Of a stretch of DNA of 56,602 nucleotides, positions 156 to 6,969 are shown in pieces; the stretch's first letter is position 1, and the number at the start of each line of letters is the position of its first letter. This stretch comes from an uncultured Alphaproteobacteria bacterium. Its GTDB lineage: Bacteria; Pseudomonadota; Alphaproteobacteria; HIMB59; GCA-002718135. Below the pieces are notes generated by a model. It searched no databases, was not told where the DNA came from, and worked only from the letters and a program-made list of their open reading frames with translations. The DNA lies in contig CACJEE010000006.1 of the NCBI GenBank assembly GCA_902592345.1, forward strand, positions 1 through 56,602, read 5' to 3'. Position numbers and translations under genes: made by a program.

Positions 156-258
156 CAAAATGACTATTTAAATTAAAAAAAGCATTTTAAAACAACATAA
201 TTTTATCATAGATCAAAATTAACTTTTCAGGCTATAGTTTTTGCTTTATTTAAGGTTT

Positions 259-861
259 ATGCATCTTTTTTTTTCAACACCTGTGTGGATTGATGAAATA
301 AATAATTTTGAAAGTATAAATTCAGAATTAAAAAATTATATTCATAAAGAAAAAGAAAAAAATCCAGAAGGTACAAAAAAAAGTAATGTTAATGGCTGGC
401 ACTCAGAAGAATTTGATTTAAAAAATGAAAAATTGAAAAATTTTATTGCTGAAATTTCTAAAAATATTGGGAACGCTATAAATGATATGGGCTGGGATTT
501 GGAAACTCAGTTAGCAAAAATAACAAGCATGTGGTCAATTATAAATACTAAAGATGCTTTTAATGAAAAACACCATCATGGAAACAGTGCCCTTAGTGCT
601 GCCTATTACGTTAAAGCTGAGAAAAATGCAGGTGATATTGTTTTTTTTGACCCAAGACAGGCTAATGTTTTTCACCACCCAATTTCTAAAAAAGCAAATA
701 ATATAAATGCTCAAGTTCAATCAGTAACACCTAAAGCAGGTACCTTGGTTTTATTTCCAAGCTATGTTGAGCATAAAGTGAATCCTAATCTTTCCAACGA
801 GGAAAGAATTGTAATCAGTTTTAATGTTTCATTGATTAAAAAGAAAGACCTTTTGAAATAA
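259..861 (+). CDS. putative 2OG-Fe(II) oxygenase (TIGR02466-like)
   Basis: ORF 241..861; likely start ATG 259 (MHLFFSTPVWIDEI); HHHGNSALSAAYYVKAEKNAGDIVFFDPR and PSYVEHKV motifs. Confidence 0.75.
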   Translation: MHLFFSTPVWIDEINNFESINSELKNYIHKEKEKNPEGTKKSNVNGWHSEEFDLKNEKLKNFIAEISKNIGNAINDMGWDLETQLAKITSMWSIINTKDAFNEKHHHGNSALSAAYYVKAEKNAGDIVFFDPRQANVFHHPISKKANNINAQVQSVTPKAGTLVLFPSYVEHKVNPNLSNEERIVISFNVSLIKKKDLLK

Positions 862-899
862 TAAAATTTTTTTATATACTAAATAAAATAAAATAATTG

Positions 900-1829
900 A
901 TGAAAAAAGAAACATTACCAACTCTATTATATAAGACCAAAAGTGACTCTCAAAAATTTGGAGGTCACTGGTTCAGAGGAAAAAATTGTAACTTTATTCC
1001 ATCAAAAAAACACTTCAACGATAAAGATTTTTTTGAAAAATATATATTAGAGGGTCTAAAACCAGAAAAACCGTTTATTAGCAAAAAACATAATATACTT
1101 GCTTTTGGAAGTTGCTTTGCTTCTGAGGTTTCAACATATCTTGCAGACAAAAATTATTCTATTTTTAACAAAAAGTATTCAACTGATGCCCATATTATAC
1201 GTTACGGAGAAGGTATGGCAAATACATTTACAGTTTTAGAACAGTTGCTTTGGGCTTTTGAAAATAAAAATATTGAAAAAAATACTTGGTATTATTCCCC
1301 TAACGAACAAGAAAGAAATGATCAAGACATAAGAATGCAAACATTAAACTTGTTAAATCAAATTGATGTTTTTATTGTTACTGTTGGACTGTCTGAGGTT
1401 TGGTATAACAAAAAAAACAATCAAGTATTTTGGAAAGCAATACCTGCTAATCAGTTTGAAGAAGATAAACACGGTTTTAGATTATCTTCGGTTGAAGAAA
1501 ATTCAAAAAATCTAGATGGTATTTGTTCTGTTATCAAAAAACACAAACCTGATGCATCAATTATCTTTACTCTTTCTCCCATACCCTTAATGGCTACATT
1601 TAGACCACAATCCTGCATAACGGCAAACTCTATTTCAAAATCTATTCTTAGAGTGTCACTTGACAACGTAATGACAAATTCCAAAAAAAATAAAAATATT
1701 TATTATTTTCCATCTTATGAAATCACAAAAGATTATTTTGCCGATCCATTTATGGATGATAACAGACACTTGAAGAAAGATTGCATTCTGGAGATAATGA
1801 AAGTTTTTGAGGACAGCTACTGTTGCTAA
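900..1829 (+). CDS. GSCFA domain protein
   Basis: ILAFGSCFASEVSTYL signature; ATG at 900. Confidence 0.85.
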   Translation: MKKETLPTLLYKTKSDSQKFGGHWFRGKNCNFIPSKKHFNDKDFFEKYILEGLKPEKPFISKKHNILAFGSCFASEVSTYLADKNYSIFNKKYSTDAHIIRYGEGMANTFTVLEQLLWAFENKNIEKNTWYYSPNEQERNDQDIRMQTLNLLNQIDVFIVTVGLSEVWYNKKNNQVFWKAIPANQFEEDKHGFRLSSVEENSKNLDGICSVIKKHKPDASIIFTLSPIPLMATFRPQSCITANSISKSILRVSLDNVMTNSKKNKNIYYFPSYEITKDYFADPFMDDNRHLKKDCILEIMKVFEDSYCC

Positions 1830-1871
1830 AATTTGTTTGTTAAATATTATTATTAATTATATAAAATAATT

Positions 1872-2519
1872 ATGGGAAATGCCGTCTATCCAGTTTTTGT
1901 AAATAAAAAAAATAATAAAAAGTTAGCCTTTTATCCAGTTAAAAAAAATGCAAACACCTCTTCTAAGTTATTTTTTGCCAGCCATTTAGGAATTGAAGAT
2001 AAATTTTTTTATTTAGAAGACGAAATTCCAAGATTTAAACAAACTCAAAAAATGCATGATAATTTTAAAAATAAGTCTAACCTTGTAAATTTATATCAAG
2101 GCAAACATGCGTTTCAAAAAATAAATGTAGAATACAAATCTTGCATTGTGCGAGATCCACTAGAAAGGTTTTTGTCAGCATATAAAAATAGAATTCTTTT
2201 TCATAAAGATGAAGAGTTTAATAATCATACTGTAAATGAGGTAATAGAAAAGTTAGAAAGTGGTGCTATAGAAAATAGGCACTTTCTTCCACAAAAATAT
2301 TTTTTAGGAAATGATTTGGGCTATTTTAACATAGTCGGTTCTTTATCCAATATTAAGGCCTTTGAAGAAAAAATTAATAATTTTTTTGAACAAAAGAGAA
2401 AATTTCCCAAACTTCAAATAGGTGGGAAGGACTATCAAATAAATTTAAACATAGATCAAAAAAATAAAATAAAAAAAATTTATAGTGATGACTATAATTT
2501 AGTTGAAAAGTATCTTTAA
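1872..2519 (+). CDS. sulfotransferase family protein
   Basis: CIVRDPLERFLSAYKNRI resembles the 3'-phosphate binding motif of Sulfotransfer_2-type enzymes. Confidence 0.7.
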   Translation: MGNAVYPVFVNKKNNKKLAFYPVKKNANTSSKLFFASHLGIEDKFFYLEDEIPRFKQTQKMHDNFKNKSNLVNLYQGKHAFQKINVEYKSCIVRDPLERFLSAYKNRILFHKDEEFNNHTVNEVIEKLESGAIENRHFLPQKYFLGNDLGYFNIVGSLSNIKAFEEKINNFFEQKRKFPKLQIGGKDYQINLNIDQKNKIKKIYSDDYNLVEKYL

Positions 2520-2601
2520 AAATTTTTTATAATTTAATAATATTAAGGCATTCCTAAAGTGTCACTTAAATTAATTGTAACTATAAAAATTATTTGATTT
2601 A

Positions 2602-2651
2602 TGAAGATAGCGAAGGAATTCGGATCATCGAATTCAACTCTAGCAAGGATG
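2602..2651 (-). repeat. degenerate partial tRNA-Gly copy (att-like direct repeat)
   Basis: Ungapped alignment to 3687..3736 of the tRNA-Gly gene, same orientation; 33/42 identical over 2610..2651, about 37/50 including the acceptor/CCA end. Confidence 0.65.
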
Positions 2652-2667
2652 TTGAGTGTAAATTTAT

Positions 2668-3660
2668 CTAATTTTCTAACAAAAAAATTGAATAGTATTT
2701 ATTTTTATCTGTCCAGTATTTTTTTACTTTCCACCCAGCTGAATTTGCCAAAATTTTAAAACTATTTAACGTAAATTTTTTTGATGTTTCAGTTTGTATT
2801 TTTTCATTTTTTTTAACAAAAAATTTTTTATTATCAATAATAAATTTTTGATCTTTTTTACTAATTAAAAAACTTTCTACAGAATTGTTTTTTTCATTAA
2901 AATGAGAAAAATATTTAAAATCTTTTTGTTTTAACTTTGTTTTAAAAACCTTATTAATTCTGCTCAATAAGTTAAAATTAAATTTTGCAGTAGTTCCCTT
3001 AGAGTCATTATAAGCTTTCTCGATAATTTTTTTATTTTTAATTAAGTCTACACCTACAAACAAACAACCGTTTTTACCTAAAGTTGTTTTTGCATTTTGG
3101 AGAAAAATTTTTTCTTTTTTTTCATAAAAATTCCCTATCGACGAGCCTAAAAAAAAACCAATTCTTTTTTTTGAAATTTGGTTAGGTAATTTGAATTTAT
3201 TTATATAATCACCATAAGCGGGCATAATAATTAGATTGGGGAAAGATTTTGCCAGCTTAATTGATGATTTTAGCAAAAAATCATAAGAAATATCTAATGG
3301 CATAAAAAATTTTACTTGATTATTAATTAAAATACCAATTTTATCTGTTGCTCCACTTCCGAATTCAAGGAATGTTAAGTTGTTGTCAAAAATGTTTTTC
3401 ATTTCCTTTGATATTTGTTTTAAAATTTTTTTTTCAGTTCTTGTAGCGTAATATTCTTTTAGTTTAGTAATTTTTTCAAAATATTTACTTCCATTTAAAT
3501 CGTATTTAAATTTAGAGGGAATTCTTTTATTTTTTTTTGATAATTCTGTTTTTAATTCTTTGCTAAAAGCAATATTATCTATTTTGTCAAATTTTTTATA
3601 GTTTTGTATATAATCTGTATTTAAGTTTGATAATGATTTGCCCATTTTTTTAATTATCAT
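2668..3660 (-). CDS. egtD: L-histidine N(alpha)-methyltransferase (EgtD family)
   Basis: Full-length similarity to EgtD: KFKYDLNGSKYFEKITKLKEYYATRTE, LEFGSGATDK, FFLGSSIGN, DLIKN, ETSKKF; known histidine-binding residues (Tyr, Asn, Tyr, Glu, Ser) appear conserved. Confidence 0.88.
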   Translation of the reverse strand: MIIKKMGKSLSNLNTDYIQNYKKFDKIDNIAFSKELKTELSKKNKRIPSKFKYDLNGSKYFEKITKLKEYYATRTEKKILKQISKEMKNIFDNNLTFLEFGSGATDKIGILINNQVKFFMPLDISYDFLLKSSIKLAKSFPNLIIMPAYGDYINKFKLPNQISKKRIGFFLGSSIGNFYEKKEKIFLQNAKTTLGKNGCLFVGVDLIKNKKIIEKAYNDSKGTTAKFNFNLLSRINKVFKTKLKQKDFKYFSHFNEKNNSVESFLISKKDQKFIIDNKKFFVKKNEKIQTETSKKFTLNSFKILANSAGWKVKKYWTDKNKYYSIFLLEN

Positions 3661-3686
3661 TTTTTTAATAATATAGATAATAGTTT

Positions 3687-3761
3687 TGGAGCGGGCGAAG
3701 GGATTCGAACCCTCGACTTCAACCTTGGCAAGGTTGCGCTCTACCCCTGAGCTACGCCCGC
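3687..3761 (-). tRNA. tRNA-Gly(GCC)
   Basis: Reverse complement GCGGGCGTAGCTCAGGGGTAGAGCGCAACCTTGCCAAGGTTGAAGTCGAGGGTTCGAATCCCTTCGCCCGCTCCA folds as a cloverleaf, anticodon GCC, encoded CCA. Confidence 0.97.
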
Positions 3762-3819: not shown

Positions 3820-4335
3820 ATGTTAAGTTCAAAAGAATTTATAAAATTATTTACTGACAAAGGCTATGACTATGATCTTCATGAGCATCAAGCACTTTTT
3901 ACTGTAGAAGACTCAAATAAATTCAGGGGAAAAATAAAAGGATTGCATAGTAAAAATTTATTTTTAAAAAATAAAAAAAATAAATTTTATTTAATTTCTT
4001 GTGAAGAATTTACAGATATAAATCTTAAAAAGATTTCAAAATTTTTAAATTTAGGAAACGTTTCTTTTGCAAAGGAAGAATATTTAACAAATTTACTAGG
4101 GGTAAAACCTGGTTCAGTTACACCTTTTGCTTTATTAAATGACAGCGAAAACAGAATAGATTTTTATCTTGAAGAAAAACTTTACAATTCAAATTTTATT
4201 AATTTTCACCCGCTAACAAATACAGCAACTATTACAATGAAATGCAGCACATTTATTGAGTTTATGATTGAAAATAATAAAAAAATACATATCTTTTCAA
4301 CAGTAGAAGGAGTGATTATCAAAACATATGGATAG
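3820..4335 (+). CDS. YbaK/ProX-type prolyl-tRNA deacylase
   Basis: HEHQALFTVEDSNKFRGKIKGLHSKNLFLKNKKNKFYLI and GVKPGSVTPFALLND motifs. Confidence 0.85.
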   Translation: MLSSKEFIKLFTDKGYDYDLHEHQALFTVEDSNKFRGKIKGLHSKNLFLKNKKNKFYLISCEEFTDINLKKISKFLNLGNVSFAKEEYLTNLLGVKPGSVTPFALLNDSENRIDFYLEEKLYNSNFINFHPLTNTATITMKCSTFIEFMIENNKKIHIFSTVEGVIIKTYG

Positions 4336-5191
4336 TAGCAATATAATTGATGTTAGTGAAAATGATTTTGAAAACCTAGTCATAAACTCAAGTGATAATA
4401 AGTTAGTTATTGTTGATTTCTGGGCACCTTGGTGTGGGCCTTGTAAACAACTAACGCCAATTATGGAAAAAGTTGCAAAAGAAAATCCAGATAGTTTTGA
4501 TTTGGTTAAAATTAATATAGACGATAATAAACAAATAGCTGCTCAGCTTAGAATTCAATCAATTCCTGCAGTCTTTGCCTTTAAGGATAAGAAAGTTATC
4601 AACGCTTTTCAAGGAGTAATTTCTGAAAAAGAATTTGTTGATTTTATTGAAAAATCAATAGGTAAAAAACTGACAGAGGATTTCAGTAATTTTTATAATG
4701 AAATAAAAAGTCTTATTGATGATAAAAAATTTATTGAAGCCAAAGACAAGCTATTAGTTTTTTTTACTGAAAATACTGGTGAGCCAATAGCTGTAAGTTT
4801 GTATCTTGAATGTTTGTTGGCCCAAAAGGAATTCAAGGAAATAGATGATTTTGTTTCCTCTCTTGATGAAGAGATGAAAAAAAATCAAGAAATAAATAAA
4901 ATTATTAAAAAAATAAAAATAGTAAAAGATTCAAAGGACTCTGATTCTATAGAAATACTGCTTGAAAAACATGACAATGATCCAAAGAATGTTAAAATAT
5001 TGCTAAACGTAGCTGAATACTATTTTTCATCTGGAGAATATGAAAAAGCTTTTCCTTTTTTATTAAATAATTATTCTATAGATAAAGAAAGAGTTAAAAA
5101 AAAATTAGTTTATTTTTTTGAAGCCCTGGGAAATGATCATCAGGCGACAAAAACTTATAGAAAGCAACTTTCAAGTTTGTTGTTTAGTTAA
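4328..5191 (+). CDS. thioredoxin-fold protein with TPR-like tail (CnoX/YbbN-like)
   Basis: DFWAPWCGPCKQLTPIMEKVA active site plus helical C-terminal half. Confidence 0.88.
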   Translation: MDSSNIIDVSENDFENLVINSSDNKLVIVDFWAPWCGPCKQLTPIMEKVAKENPDSFDLVKINIDDNKQIAAQLRIQSIPAVFAFKDKKVINAFQGVISEKEFVDFIEKSIGKKLTEDFSNFYNEIKSLIDDKKFIEAKDKLLVFFTENTGEPIAVSLYLECLLAQKEFKEIDDFVSSLDEEMKKNQEINKIIKKIKIVKDSKDSDSIEILLEKHDNDPKNVKILLNVAEYYFSSGEYEKAFPFLLNNYSIDKERVKKKLVYFFEALGNDHQATKTYRKQLSSLLFS

Positions 5192-5782
5192 ATGAAAATA
5201 CCTATTTTTCCACTGAATGGAGCTATACTATTTCCAAAAACAAACTTGCCTCTAAATATTTTTGAAGAAAGATATATTGACATGGTGGATTATTCTTTAT
5301 CAAAAAATAGATTTATTGGAATGGTTCAGCAGAAAGAAAACAACAGCCTGTATAATGTTGGGTGTTATGGAAAAATTACTGTCTTTAATGAAACACCCGA
5401 TAAAAGATACTTAATAAATCTTGAGGGTATAAGTTGTTTTAATATTGTTAAAGAAATTGACACTGGTTGTAAATTCAGAATTTGTGAAATTGAAATTTTT
5501 GATAACTTCAATGGCCCTAACCTACAAGATGGGCTAAAATCAACAATACTTGATAGTTTTGAAAAATATAAAAAAGTAAAAAACATAAATGTAAACCTTG
5601 ATGATATTTCTCAATTAAATGTAGTTGATTTACTTAAGCTTATAATAATGGTTTCACCTTTCGATGTTAGTGTTAAACAAATGTTTTTAGAACTAAAATC
5701 AAACAAAGAGCTATATGAAAATATTTTATCTACACTAGAAATAGAATTAGCTGCAAATCAAGAATCAGTTTCGATTAACTAA
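5192..5782 (+). CDS. LON N-terminal substrate-binding domain protein
   Basis: IPIFPLNGAILFPKTNLPLNIFEERYIDMV. Confidence 0.88.
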   Translation: MKIPIFPLNGAILFPKTNLPLNIFEERYIDMVDYSLSKNRFIGMVQQKENNSLYNVGCYGKITVFNETPDKRYLINLEGISCFNIVKEIDTGCKFRICEIEIFDNFNGPNLQDGLKSTILDSFEKYKKVKNINVNLDDISQLNVVDLLKLIIMVSPFDVSVKQMFLELKSNKELYENILSTLEIELAANQESVSIN

Positions 5783-6969
5783 AATCCCATAGCAAATTTA
5801 ACAATTTTTTCTTTAAAAATTCTGTTTTTATTTATTATATTAAAACCAGCCTTTTTTAAAAATTTAAAATAAGATTGATCTTTTTTAAATATCCAGTCTA
5901 GCTTATCAGTTATTTCGAAAAGCCTATATGCATCATAATAACATTTATCATTATACATTTTGCAAAAACTTTTTGTGCCTATTGTTGAGTTTCTCTCTTT
6001 GGTTTCTCTAAGCAACTTTGTTATTGACTTAACGTCTCTAAGTCCCAAATTCCATCCTTGCCCAGCTATAGGGTGGATAGAATGGGCAGCATCCCCTACA
6101 TAAATAGTTTTGTTATCATAAAATTTCTCATTAATATGCGCAGATAGTGGGAAAGATTGTAGTGAGTTAATATTTGTAACATTTCCTAATTGCTGATAAA
6201 TTTTTTCATTAATAATTTCTTTTACATATTTTATATTTAAGTCTGAAGAAGCAATCTTATCAACTATTTCTGGTTTGTTTGACCATATTAAAGCGCTTTG
6301 ATTTCTGTTGCTCTCTTTTTGCATTGGAAGAATAGCTAATGGTCCGGATTTTAAAAAAAACTCATAAGCAATATTATTATGAGGTCTTTCATGAAAAAAA
6401 CTTATTACAAGAGCTTTTTCTTTATATTTTTTTTTGAAAAAATTAGTCCCCAATATTTTTCTAACAGTGCTATTCTTTCCATCAGCAGCGATTATTAGTT
6501 TTGATTTTATTTTTTTATCATTCGAAAAGCTAATAATTTTTGAATTACTGTAAGTAATTGAAGTAAGGCTTGATCCTGTTATAAAATTTACATTATTCTT
6601 TTTTTTTAGCTCGTTAATTAAGACACTAATCAATTTTGAGTTTTTTACTATATAGCCAAGATTAGATTTATTTATAGGATTGTTGAAATCTAAATTAGAA
6701 TTAGCCGTTTCATCAATAACTTTAATATTTTTTATTGGTTCTGCAAATCCTTTGATAAATTTCCATAATCCTTGAGATTCTAAAAAAACCTTTGAGCCCT
6801 CAGCTATTGCGGTTGTTCTTGTGTCTGTTGTTGTTTTTTTATTATCAAGCGTAATATTTTTTCTTTCAGAAAGAACAATCTTATATCCTAAACTTGATGC
6901 ACAATATGCCGTTAAAAGACCTGTTAGCGCCCCTCCAACAATGTGTAAATCACAACTCAATTCTTTCAT
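5779..6969 (-). CDS. UbiH/UbiF-family FAD-dependent ubiquinone hydroxylase
   Basis: DLHIVGGALTGLLTAYCA dinucleotide-binding motif, IIAADGKNSTVR, YVGDAAHSIHPIAGQGWNLGLRD. Confidence 0.88.
   Translation of the reverse strand: MKELSCDLHIVGGALTGLLTAYCASSLGYKIVLSERKNITLDNKKTTTDTRTTAIAEGSKVFLESQGLWKFIKGFAEPIKNIKVIDETANSNLDFNNPINKSNLGYIVKNSKLISVLINELKKKNNVNFITGSSLTSITYSNSKIISFSNDKKIKSKLIIAADGKNSTVRKILGTNFFKKKYKEKALVISFFHERPHNNIAYEFFLKSGPLAILPMQKESNRNQSALIWSNKPEIVDKIASSDLNIKYVKEIINEKIYQQLGNVTNINSLQSFPLSAHINEKFYDNKTIYVGDAAHSIHPIAGQGWNLGLRDVKSITKLLRETKERNSTIGTKSFCKMYNDKCYYDAYRLFEITDKLDWIFKKDQSYFKFLKKAGFNIINKNRIFKEKIVKFAMGF

Follow-up and report, generated by a model that had tools for sequence, protein, structure and literature searches.

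A probable tRNA-anchored gene cassette array at tRNA-Gly(GCC), with egtD among its cargo, in a small-genome marine bacterium

The pangenomes of streamlined ocean bacteria are large although classical mobile elements are scarce in them, and the route by which single genes enter and leave their genomes is an open question. A small locus on contig CACJEE010000006.1 (assembly GCA_902592345.1), from an uncultured alphaproteobacterium of the HIMB59 lineage, raises it in a concrete form. Within the 56,602-nucleotide stretch that we analysed (hereafter the window), egtD, encoding an L-histidine N-alpha-methyltransferase, is the sole gene between tRNA-Gly(GCC), the only tRNA gene of the window, and a degraded copy of the 3′ part of that tRNA, with gaps of 26 bp to the tRNA and 16 bp to the remnant. 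An initial annotation had pointed out this arrangement and taken it for the trace of site-specific integration. How did egtD come to lie there? From a comparison with related genomes we arrive at the reading that the locus is very probably a tRNA-anchored cassette array, built by serial site-specific insertion at tRNA-Gly(GCC), of which egtD is one unit.

Partial copies of tRNA-Gly in the window and its relatives

The best non-self match to tRNA-Gly in the whole window lies at 2610–2651, in the same orientation (33/42 identities, score 24, with a runner-up of 11), and over 2602–2651 the identity is 37/50. Simulating the whole window 100 times with a second-order Markov model gave a top score of 16 (mean 12.4, s.d. 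1.1), so that the 50-bp match claimed by the initial annotation survives a test of the shuffled-sequence type. The copy is also as degenerate as had been supposed, the Rfam tRNA model finding nothing in 2560–2700 even at E<=10. It is a dead 3′ tRNA fragment and not a tRNA; a functional second tRNA at this place was considered and ruled out with ARAGORN and Rfam.

Searching 61 genomes of the genus with the tRNA-Gly sequence returned many partial copies close to the intact gene. For counting we used the window and 44 further loci, picked for holding an intact tRNA-Gly (repeats played no part in the choice), giving 45 congeneric loci. Partial tRNA-Gly copies, one to six per locus and 77 in total, are found at 37 of the 45. 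Each of the 77 is directly oriented and placed on the CCA side; the one inverted self-match, a weak one, overlaps with a copy in direct orientation. The copies end at the tRNA 3′ end in 68 cases, and 29 hold an exact 51-bp match. The repeated core is the 3′ part of tRNA-Gly, tRNA positions 25–75 or 53–75: 50 copies start at or before the anticodon stem and 27 at or near the T-loop. These two classes reportedly correspond, in the work of Williams from 2002, to two of the usual crossover sublocations of tRNA-specific integrases. The integration pattern proposed for the window is thus borne out by 36 of the 44 related loci, which have like repeats, often 51/51 identical.

The units between copies range from 506 bp to 11 kb, with a median of 1.2 kb; 63 of the 77 measure 2 kb or less, and 46 hold a single gene by open reading frame (ORF) count. 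An all-against-all comparison of array units revealed the same DNA at different positions in different genomes. For instance, a 3159-bp unit is second in one array (G013) and first in another (G022) at 100% identity, and the first unit of G028 is the second of G073 (98%). The first units of G013 and G073 are likewise identical (100%), and a unit is common to G003 and G032 (97%). The ends of exchanged units fall at or near repeat edges. Some arrays have suffered internal deletion across a unit boundary, as in AG-435-K07 (G083).

Similar copies occur outside the genus. In the sister family, CCA-side partial tRNA-Gly copies measure 45 bp in five genomes (G039, G042, G043, G046, G131) and 51 bp in G056; two full tRNA-Gly copies lie ~6 kb apart in G049, G050 and G056, and G037 has a copy of the tRNA-Gly 5′ half ~4 kb upstream. 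Other tRNAs may serve as well, the candidates being tRNA-Leu(TAA), which has a partial copy of 54 bp next to a 413-residue recombinase (L085, G069, 1124–2667), and tRNA-Leu(CAA) beside a 332-residue integrase (L080, G002, 832–1995). A GC-rich IMG/VR contig from another bacterium (L149, 4318–5526) holds an integrase-like ORF beside a tRNA-Gly(GCC) with an identical 3′ part, which suggests that this tRNA is targeted beyond the present lineage.

Arm-like repeats and integrases

Many units carry two short direct repeats right behind the CCA end (the leader) and again right before the distal copy (the tail). The leader repeat of a unit tends to recur in its own tail, with a mean score of 20.5 compared to 13.2 for mismatched pairs (0/2000 permutations). 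When a repeat run of 7 or more is required, 36/48 leaders and 30/44 tails have a best direct repeat with a period of 11 bp, compared to 1/19 mid-unit controls. Direct repeats about one helical turn apart that flank a core have the look of the arm sites bound by integrases of the tyrosine recombinase type, and by this analogy the paired 11-bp repeats would act as integrase arm sites.

The initial annotation had seen no integrase. This stands for the variable stretch of the window, where none was found, but not for the array in other species: integrases lie inside array elements of G003, G017, G030 and G078, and the last three are mutually 76–92% identical. One leader class of eight members joins the integrase-bearing elements of G017, G030 and G078 with integrase-less units of G015, G063, G022, G070 and G074. 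Most of the eight have TGTGACA-type arms at both ends (the G070 tail is without them), and in the integrase elements of G030 and G078 the arms are TTGTGACA. The largest leader class comprises 22 units with varied small genes. Its leader pattern is found in 14 of 102 genus genomes and the reversed control in none, and all extra contigs checked that have the pattern bear tRNA-Gly copies. That many units have complete arm pairs suggests mobilisation in trans, and not merely in cis.

Several cassettes open with only the first 40–110 codons of an integrase (L140, positions 1–200 of the array, G028; L125, G029; L109, G066; L115, G030; L112, G073), and look as if whole elements had shrunk to cassettes via deletion. 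Separately, a tyrosine recombinase of ~352 residues occurs once in most genomes of the genus (L087, 1060–2118, and equivalents; G000:C27:10094-10675); it scores far under the XerC and XerD cut-offs, and no clear XerC/XerD pair was seen. We considered it as a helper and set it aside, as no link to the arms was found, and did the same for integrases on other contigs (L079–L086), which have no tRNA-Gly copy nearby.

We infer a mechanism in which small DNA circles, each carrying the tRNA 3′ part as a core between two sets of integrase arm repeats, would be inserted repeatedly at the tRNA-Gly(GCC) hotspot by tyrosine recombinases. Recombination with the chromosomal tRNA would restore an intact tRNA and put the new cargo immediately after its CCA end, and the former 3′ part of the tRNA would persist as a direct repeat at the distal end of the insert, so that serial insertion would yield an array with the newest unit adjoining the tRNA. 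Most units hold one gene and no integrase; their movement would depend in trans on integrases that a minority of larger elements at this tRNA would supply. Some carrier would take the units from cell to cell. The egtD gene would have entered the array long ago as such a unit or within one and later reached distant species; because its unit has neither arms nor a clean distal repeat, the most recent of these moves may have relied on homologous recombination or on carriage as a passenger.

The history of egtD within the array

The identity of the gene is secure, as its product matches TIGR03438 at 301 bits (cut-off 290.9) and a solved EgtD (PDB ID: 4pim) at E 5e-33; an alternative start lies 15 bp downstream, as in relatives. 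The ratio of nonsynonymous to synonymous substitution rates (dN/dS) is 0.08–0.17, and egtD is therefore kept as a protein. We searched the five egtD genomes, each incomplete (66–76% complete), for egtB and found no match above the family cut-off; the product may thus, tentatively, be hercynine rather than ergothioneine.

Across 102 genomes of the genus egtD occurs in five, every time inside the tRNA-Gly array, and it is absent from all 24 sister-family genomes examined; it is not a fixture of this tRNA in all relatives. Its position varies. In the window and in AG-414-A22 (G101) it immediately follows the tRNA; it is second in AG-435-K07, follows a truncated remnant in AG-404-D18 (G099) and stands behind five repeats in AG-447-P14 (G075). 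In the last it follows the CCA end of a remnant, and the leader DNA resembles that behind the window's intact tRNA. Remnants lie in the same place behind egtD in AG-435-K07 and AG-404-D18, and two C-to-T changes in the remnant are common to the latter and the window, a weak hint that remnant and egtD perhaps travelled together.

The initial annotation had suggested a tree of egtD as a test for lateral transfer, and the gene's history does conflict with that of core genes. The window's EgtD is 94% identical to that of AG-404-D18 and 91% to that of AG-435-K07, compared to 64 and 63% for FtsK, 49 and 47% for thioredoxin and 47–68% for core proteins overall in the same two hosts. For AG-414-A22 and AG-447-P14 the two agree (egtD 88 and 87%, core proteins 80–89%). 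Core data reject a clade of the window, AG-404-D18 and AG-435-K07 (approximately unbiased test, p-AU 3e-5). A vertically kept gene of the genus, which we also considered, is ruled out by the presence in five of 102 genomes together with this incongruence.

The extent of the variable DNA follows from the 2-oxoglutarate (2OG) oxygenase at 241–861. Its homologues (63–84% identical) lie on the far side of the cargo in four relatives (G001, G034, G019, G006), and what lies between it and tRNA-Gly differs in every relative compared: one FkbM methyltransferase in G001, ~7.5 kb in G034, and other genes in G019 and G006. Because the oxygenase recurs beyond variable content, the variable stretch is 862–3686, and the ~1-kb islet of the initial annotation was too small an extent. 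That annotation had also offered the inner edge of an accessory cluster as an alternative to an islet; sulfotransferase and GSCFA genes do belong to the same variable stretch, and egtD is in our reading one unit of a multi-cassette array. A homologue of the sulfotransferase forms part of a G074 unit flanked by tRNA remnants at 4793–4815 and 5681–5729. The GSCFA and sulfotransferase pair is also found behind egtD in AG-435-K07, in reversed order (L153/L151 compared to window 897–2519). FtsK is part of the right flank conserved in relatives. The features are collected in Table 1.

Table 1. Features of the tRNA-Gly locus, in positions of the window
Feature	Position	Strand	Basis and remarks
Intact tRNA-Gly(GCC)	3687..3761	-	ARAGORN; Rfam RF00005, 70.9 bits; proposed integration target
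Decayed direct copy of tRNA positions 26-75	2602..2651	-	37/50 overall; putative distal, old attR-like end of the egtD unit
egtD, L-histidine N-alpha-methyltransferase	2668..3660	-	NCBIfam TIGR03438; tRNA-proximal cargo unit
Whole variable stretch of the array in the window	862..3686	.	Bounded by the tRNA and the flank conserved in relatives
Sulfotransferase gene (PF03567)	1872..2519	+	Pfam; part of the variable stretch
GSCFA-family gene (PF08885)	897..1829	+	Pfam; part of the variable stretch
2OG-Fe(II) oxygenase (TIGR02466), left flank in this subclade	241..861	+	Profile match and homologues
Right flank: tRNA-editing protein, thioredoxin-TPR, LON domain, UbiH	3820..6969	.	Kept adjoining or near tRNA-Gly in relatives

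Several results weigh against an array built by integrases with egtD as one of its cassettes. Eight of the 45 loci have no copy at our threshold, and neither an excised circle nor an empty site was seen in this analysis. The largest arm class, with its CAATATAGTT-type arms, has no integrase that we could find, and a search of IMG/VR for phages carrying egtD, or the leader and tail motifs of that class, found none. The distal repeat of the egtD unit is decayed wherever it is visible and undetectable behind egtD in AG-447-P14 and AG-414-A22; with the arms missing as well, any direct action of an integrase on egtD is hypothetical. The egtD data alone disfavour the core grouping weakly, without firm rejection (p-AU 0.10), and the strongest argument for transfer is accordingly the shallow egtD distance across deeply separated hosts.

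Three other explanations have to be set against these data. That the 50-bp match arose by chance, or from a tRNA-like element unrelated to integration, with egtD an ordinary resident gene, would fit the silence of the Rfam model over 2602–2651. It is refuted by the simulations, the equivalent repeats in relatives (among them the remnants behind egtD in AG-435-K07 and AG-404-D18) and the patchy and incongruent occurrence of egtD, and we regard its probability as negligible. A real array could instead be reshuffled mainly by homologous recombination between tRNA copies and shared flanks, with the partial copies left over as fossils from a small number of ancient island insertions. Stretches of 51 identical bp can serve as homology, some arrays show internal deletion across a boundary (as in AG-435-K07), the egtD unit has neither arms nor a clean distal copy yet diverges little between distant hosts, and homologous recombination is favoured for other HIMB59 islands (PMC10734472). 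We nevertheless think this unlikely for the array, in which units end precisely at the tRNA 3′ end with two crossover classes, new DNA enters on the CCA side every time, the arm-like repeats are matched within units at an 11-bp period, and integrases are present.

A closer competitor concerns egtD only, which in an integrase-built array might be a passenger inside a larger composite element, grown by accretion, and not its own cassette. The absence of arms around egtD, its sulfotransferase and GSCFA neighbours in both the window and AG-435-K07, and a remnant behind egtD that is already decayed, with two changes common to the window and AG-404-D18, all speak for this. It is harder to reconcile with egtD alone shifting position relative to other cassettes between hosts and with its place directly behind the CCA end of a remnant in AG-447-P14, and we put it a little below an even chance. 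The array built by serial insertion thus remains our preferred reading, with the qualification that the latest transfer of egtD need not have used att sites of its own. The window's unit (~1.1 kb, without arm repeats or a clean terminal repeat) is probably immobile now for want of arms, and has probably become fixed, with selection for EgtD function maintaining it.

Cargo and known systems

The cargo, named by Pfam and PADLOC, includes sulfotransferases, FkbM and other methyltransferases, parts of restriction-modification systems and McrB-like proteins, as well as a LexA-type DNA-binding domain, HNH, MFS and MMPL proteins. One three-gene cassette (L137, 15393–17119, G015; L138, G063) encodes a flavodoxin-like protein, an antibiotic-biosynthesis-type monooxygenase and an alternative oxidase, and the first two of these genes are found again in G070, as its second unit. 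Many small cargo proteins have signal-like N-termini and no assigned family. In the arrays of G015 (L137) and G018 (L144), families of such proteins are represented by related genes repeated within one array, with no Pfam match among the few scanned. Candidate phage links were set aside: the lone IMG/VR contig with the exact 50-bp sequence is GC-rich (62%), prophage-like, holds a whole tRNA-Gly and is not a marine relative, and the phage genome records among the matches listed owe their similarity to tRNA-Gly genes or unannotated stretches.

As to tRNA islands in general, the window has a tRNA with a direct repeat of its 3′ part and patchy, laterally acquired cargo, and its element has no integrase. 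The closest parallels are tandem islands. The ssrA-specific islands of Dehalococcoides (31 in number, of which only 16 have an integration module and the others have been proposed as cis-mobilizable) are likewise stacked behind a small-RNA gene with direct repeats of its 3′ end. They use a 20-bp tmRNA repeat and serine (Ccr-like) recombinases, in contrast to tRNA-Gly, cores of 23 and 51 bp and tyrosine recombinases here, and one-gene units and matched arm repeats at both ends are seen only here (PMC3146451). A similar picture emerges for the additive island fGI-2 of Ca. Methylopumilus, with tandem islands of 330 bp to 42 kb and repeats of a small-RNA 3′ end; in the parts of that report that we searched, we found no description of arm repeats, a helper integrase or relocation of a single cassette (PMC10872708). 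The tycheposons of Prochlorococcus (Hackl et al. 2023, as cited in PMC10872708 and PMC10187409), likewise islands of cargo in ocean bacteria that are bordered by a tRNA and have tyrosine recombinases, are described as 4–200 kb with a recombinase, unlike the ~1.1-kb egtD unit and most other units here (0.5–2 kb), which have none (PMC10872708).

Cis-mobilizable elements (CIMEs) resemble our units in being att-flanked, integrase-less, stacked at one site and movable with a neighbour. They are decayed conjugative elements, whereas Pfam scans of selected cargo, with no dedicated search, gave no trace of transfer genes here (PMC5704250). Their hallmark is attL and attR without integration genes; many cassettes of relatives keep core and arms, and the window's egtD unit does not. 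Integrons and clusters of attC sites lacking integron integrases (CALINs) are alike as arrays of mostly single-gene cassettes that grow from a single port and whose integrase-less units are mobilised in trans. They differ in that the port here is a tRNA gene, the repeats seen are tRNA 3′ copies and not attC (no attC finder was run), and the integrases are of phage type and lie inside some cassettes (PMC11389934). The integron-integrase model gives 18.4 bits for the G078 array integrase (cut-off 265), and the G003 integrase fails at E 0.01.

We read the array as a variant of the tandem tRNA/tmRNA islands and not as an integron. In the literature searched we found no description of units on the scale of one gene, of matched 11-bp arm repeats that fall into classes, or of arms common to integrase-bearing and integrase-less units. 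The array accounts for the coming and going, at one place, of defence genes, an alternative oxidase and an egtD that looks like an orphan. It offers a concrete, testable route for gene exchange, since the breakpoints, the classes of core and arm and the candidate helper integrases can all be seen. In this marine bacterium with its small genome, one tRNA gene thus seems to serve as a port for gene capture. A bolder form of this, to which we give an even chance, is that the tRNA gene is a general cassette-capture port analogous to an integron, where single genes would travel as non-autonomous attP minicircles with matched arms, in several arm-specificity classes each with its own integrase in trans, and would pass from species to species within a marine lineage that is abundant and streamlined.
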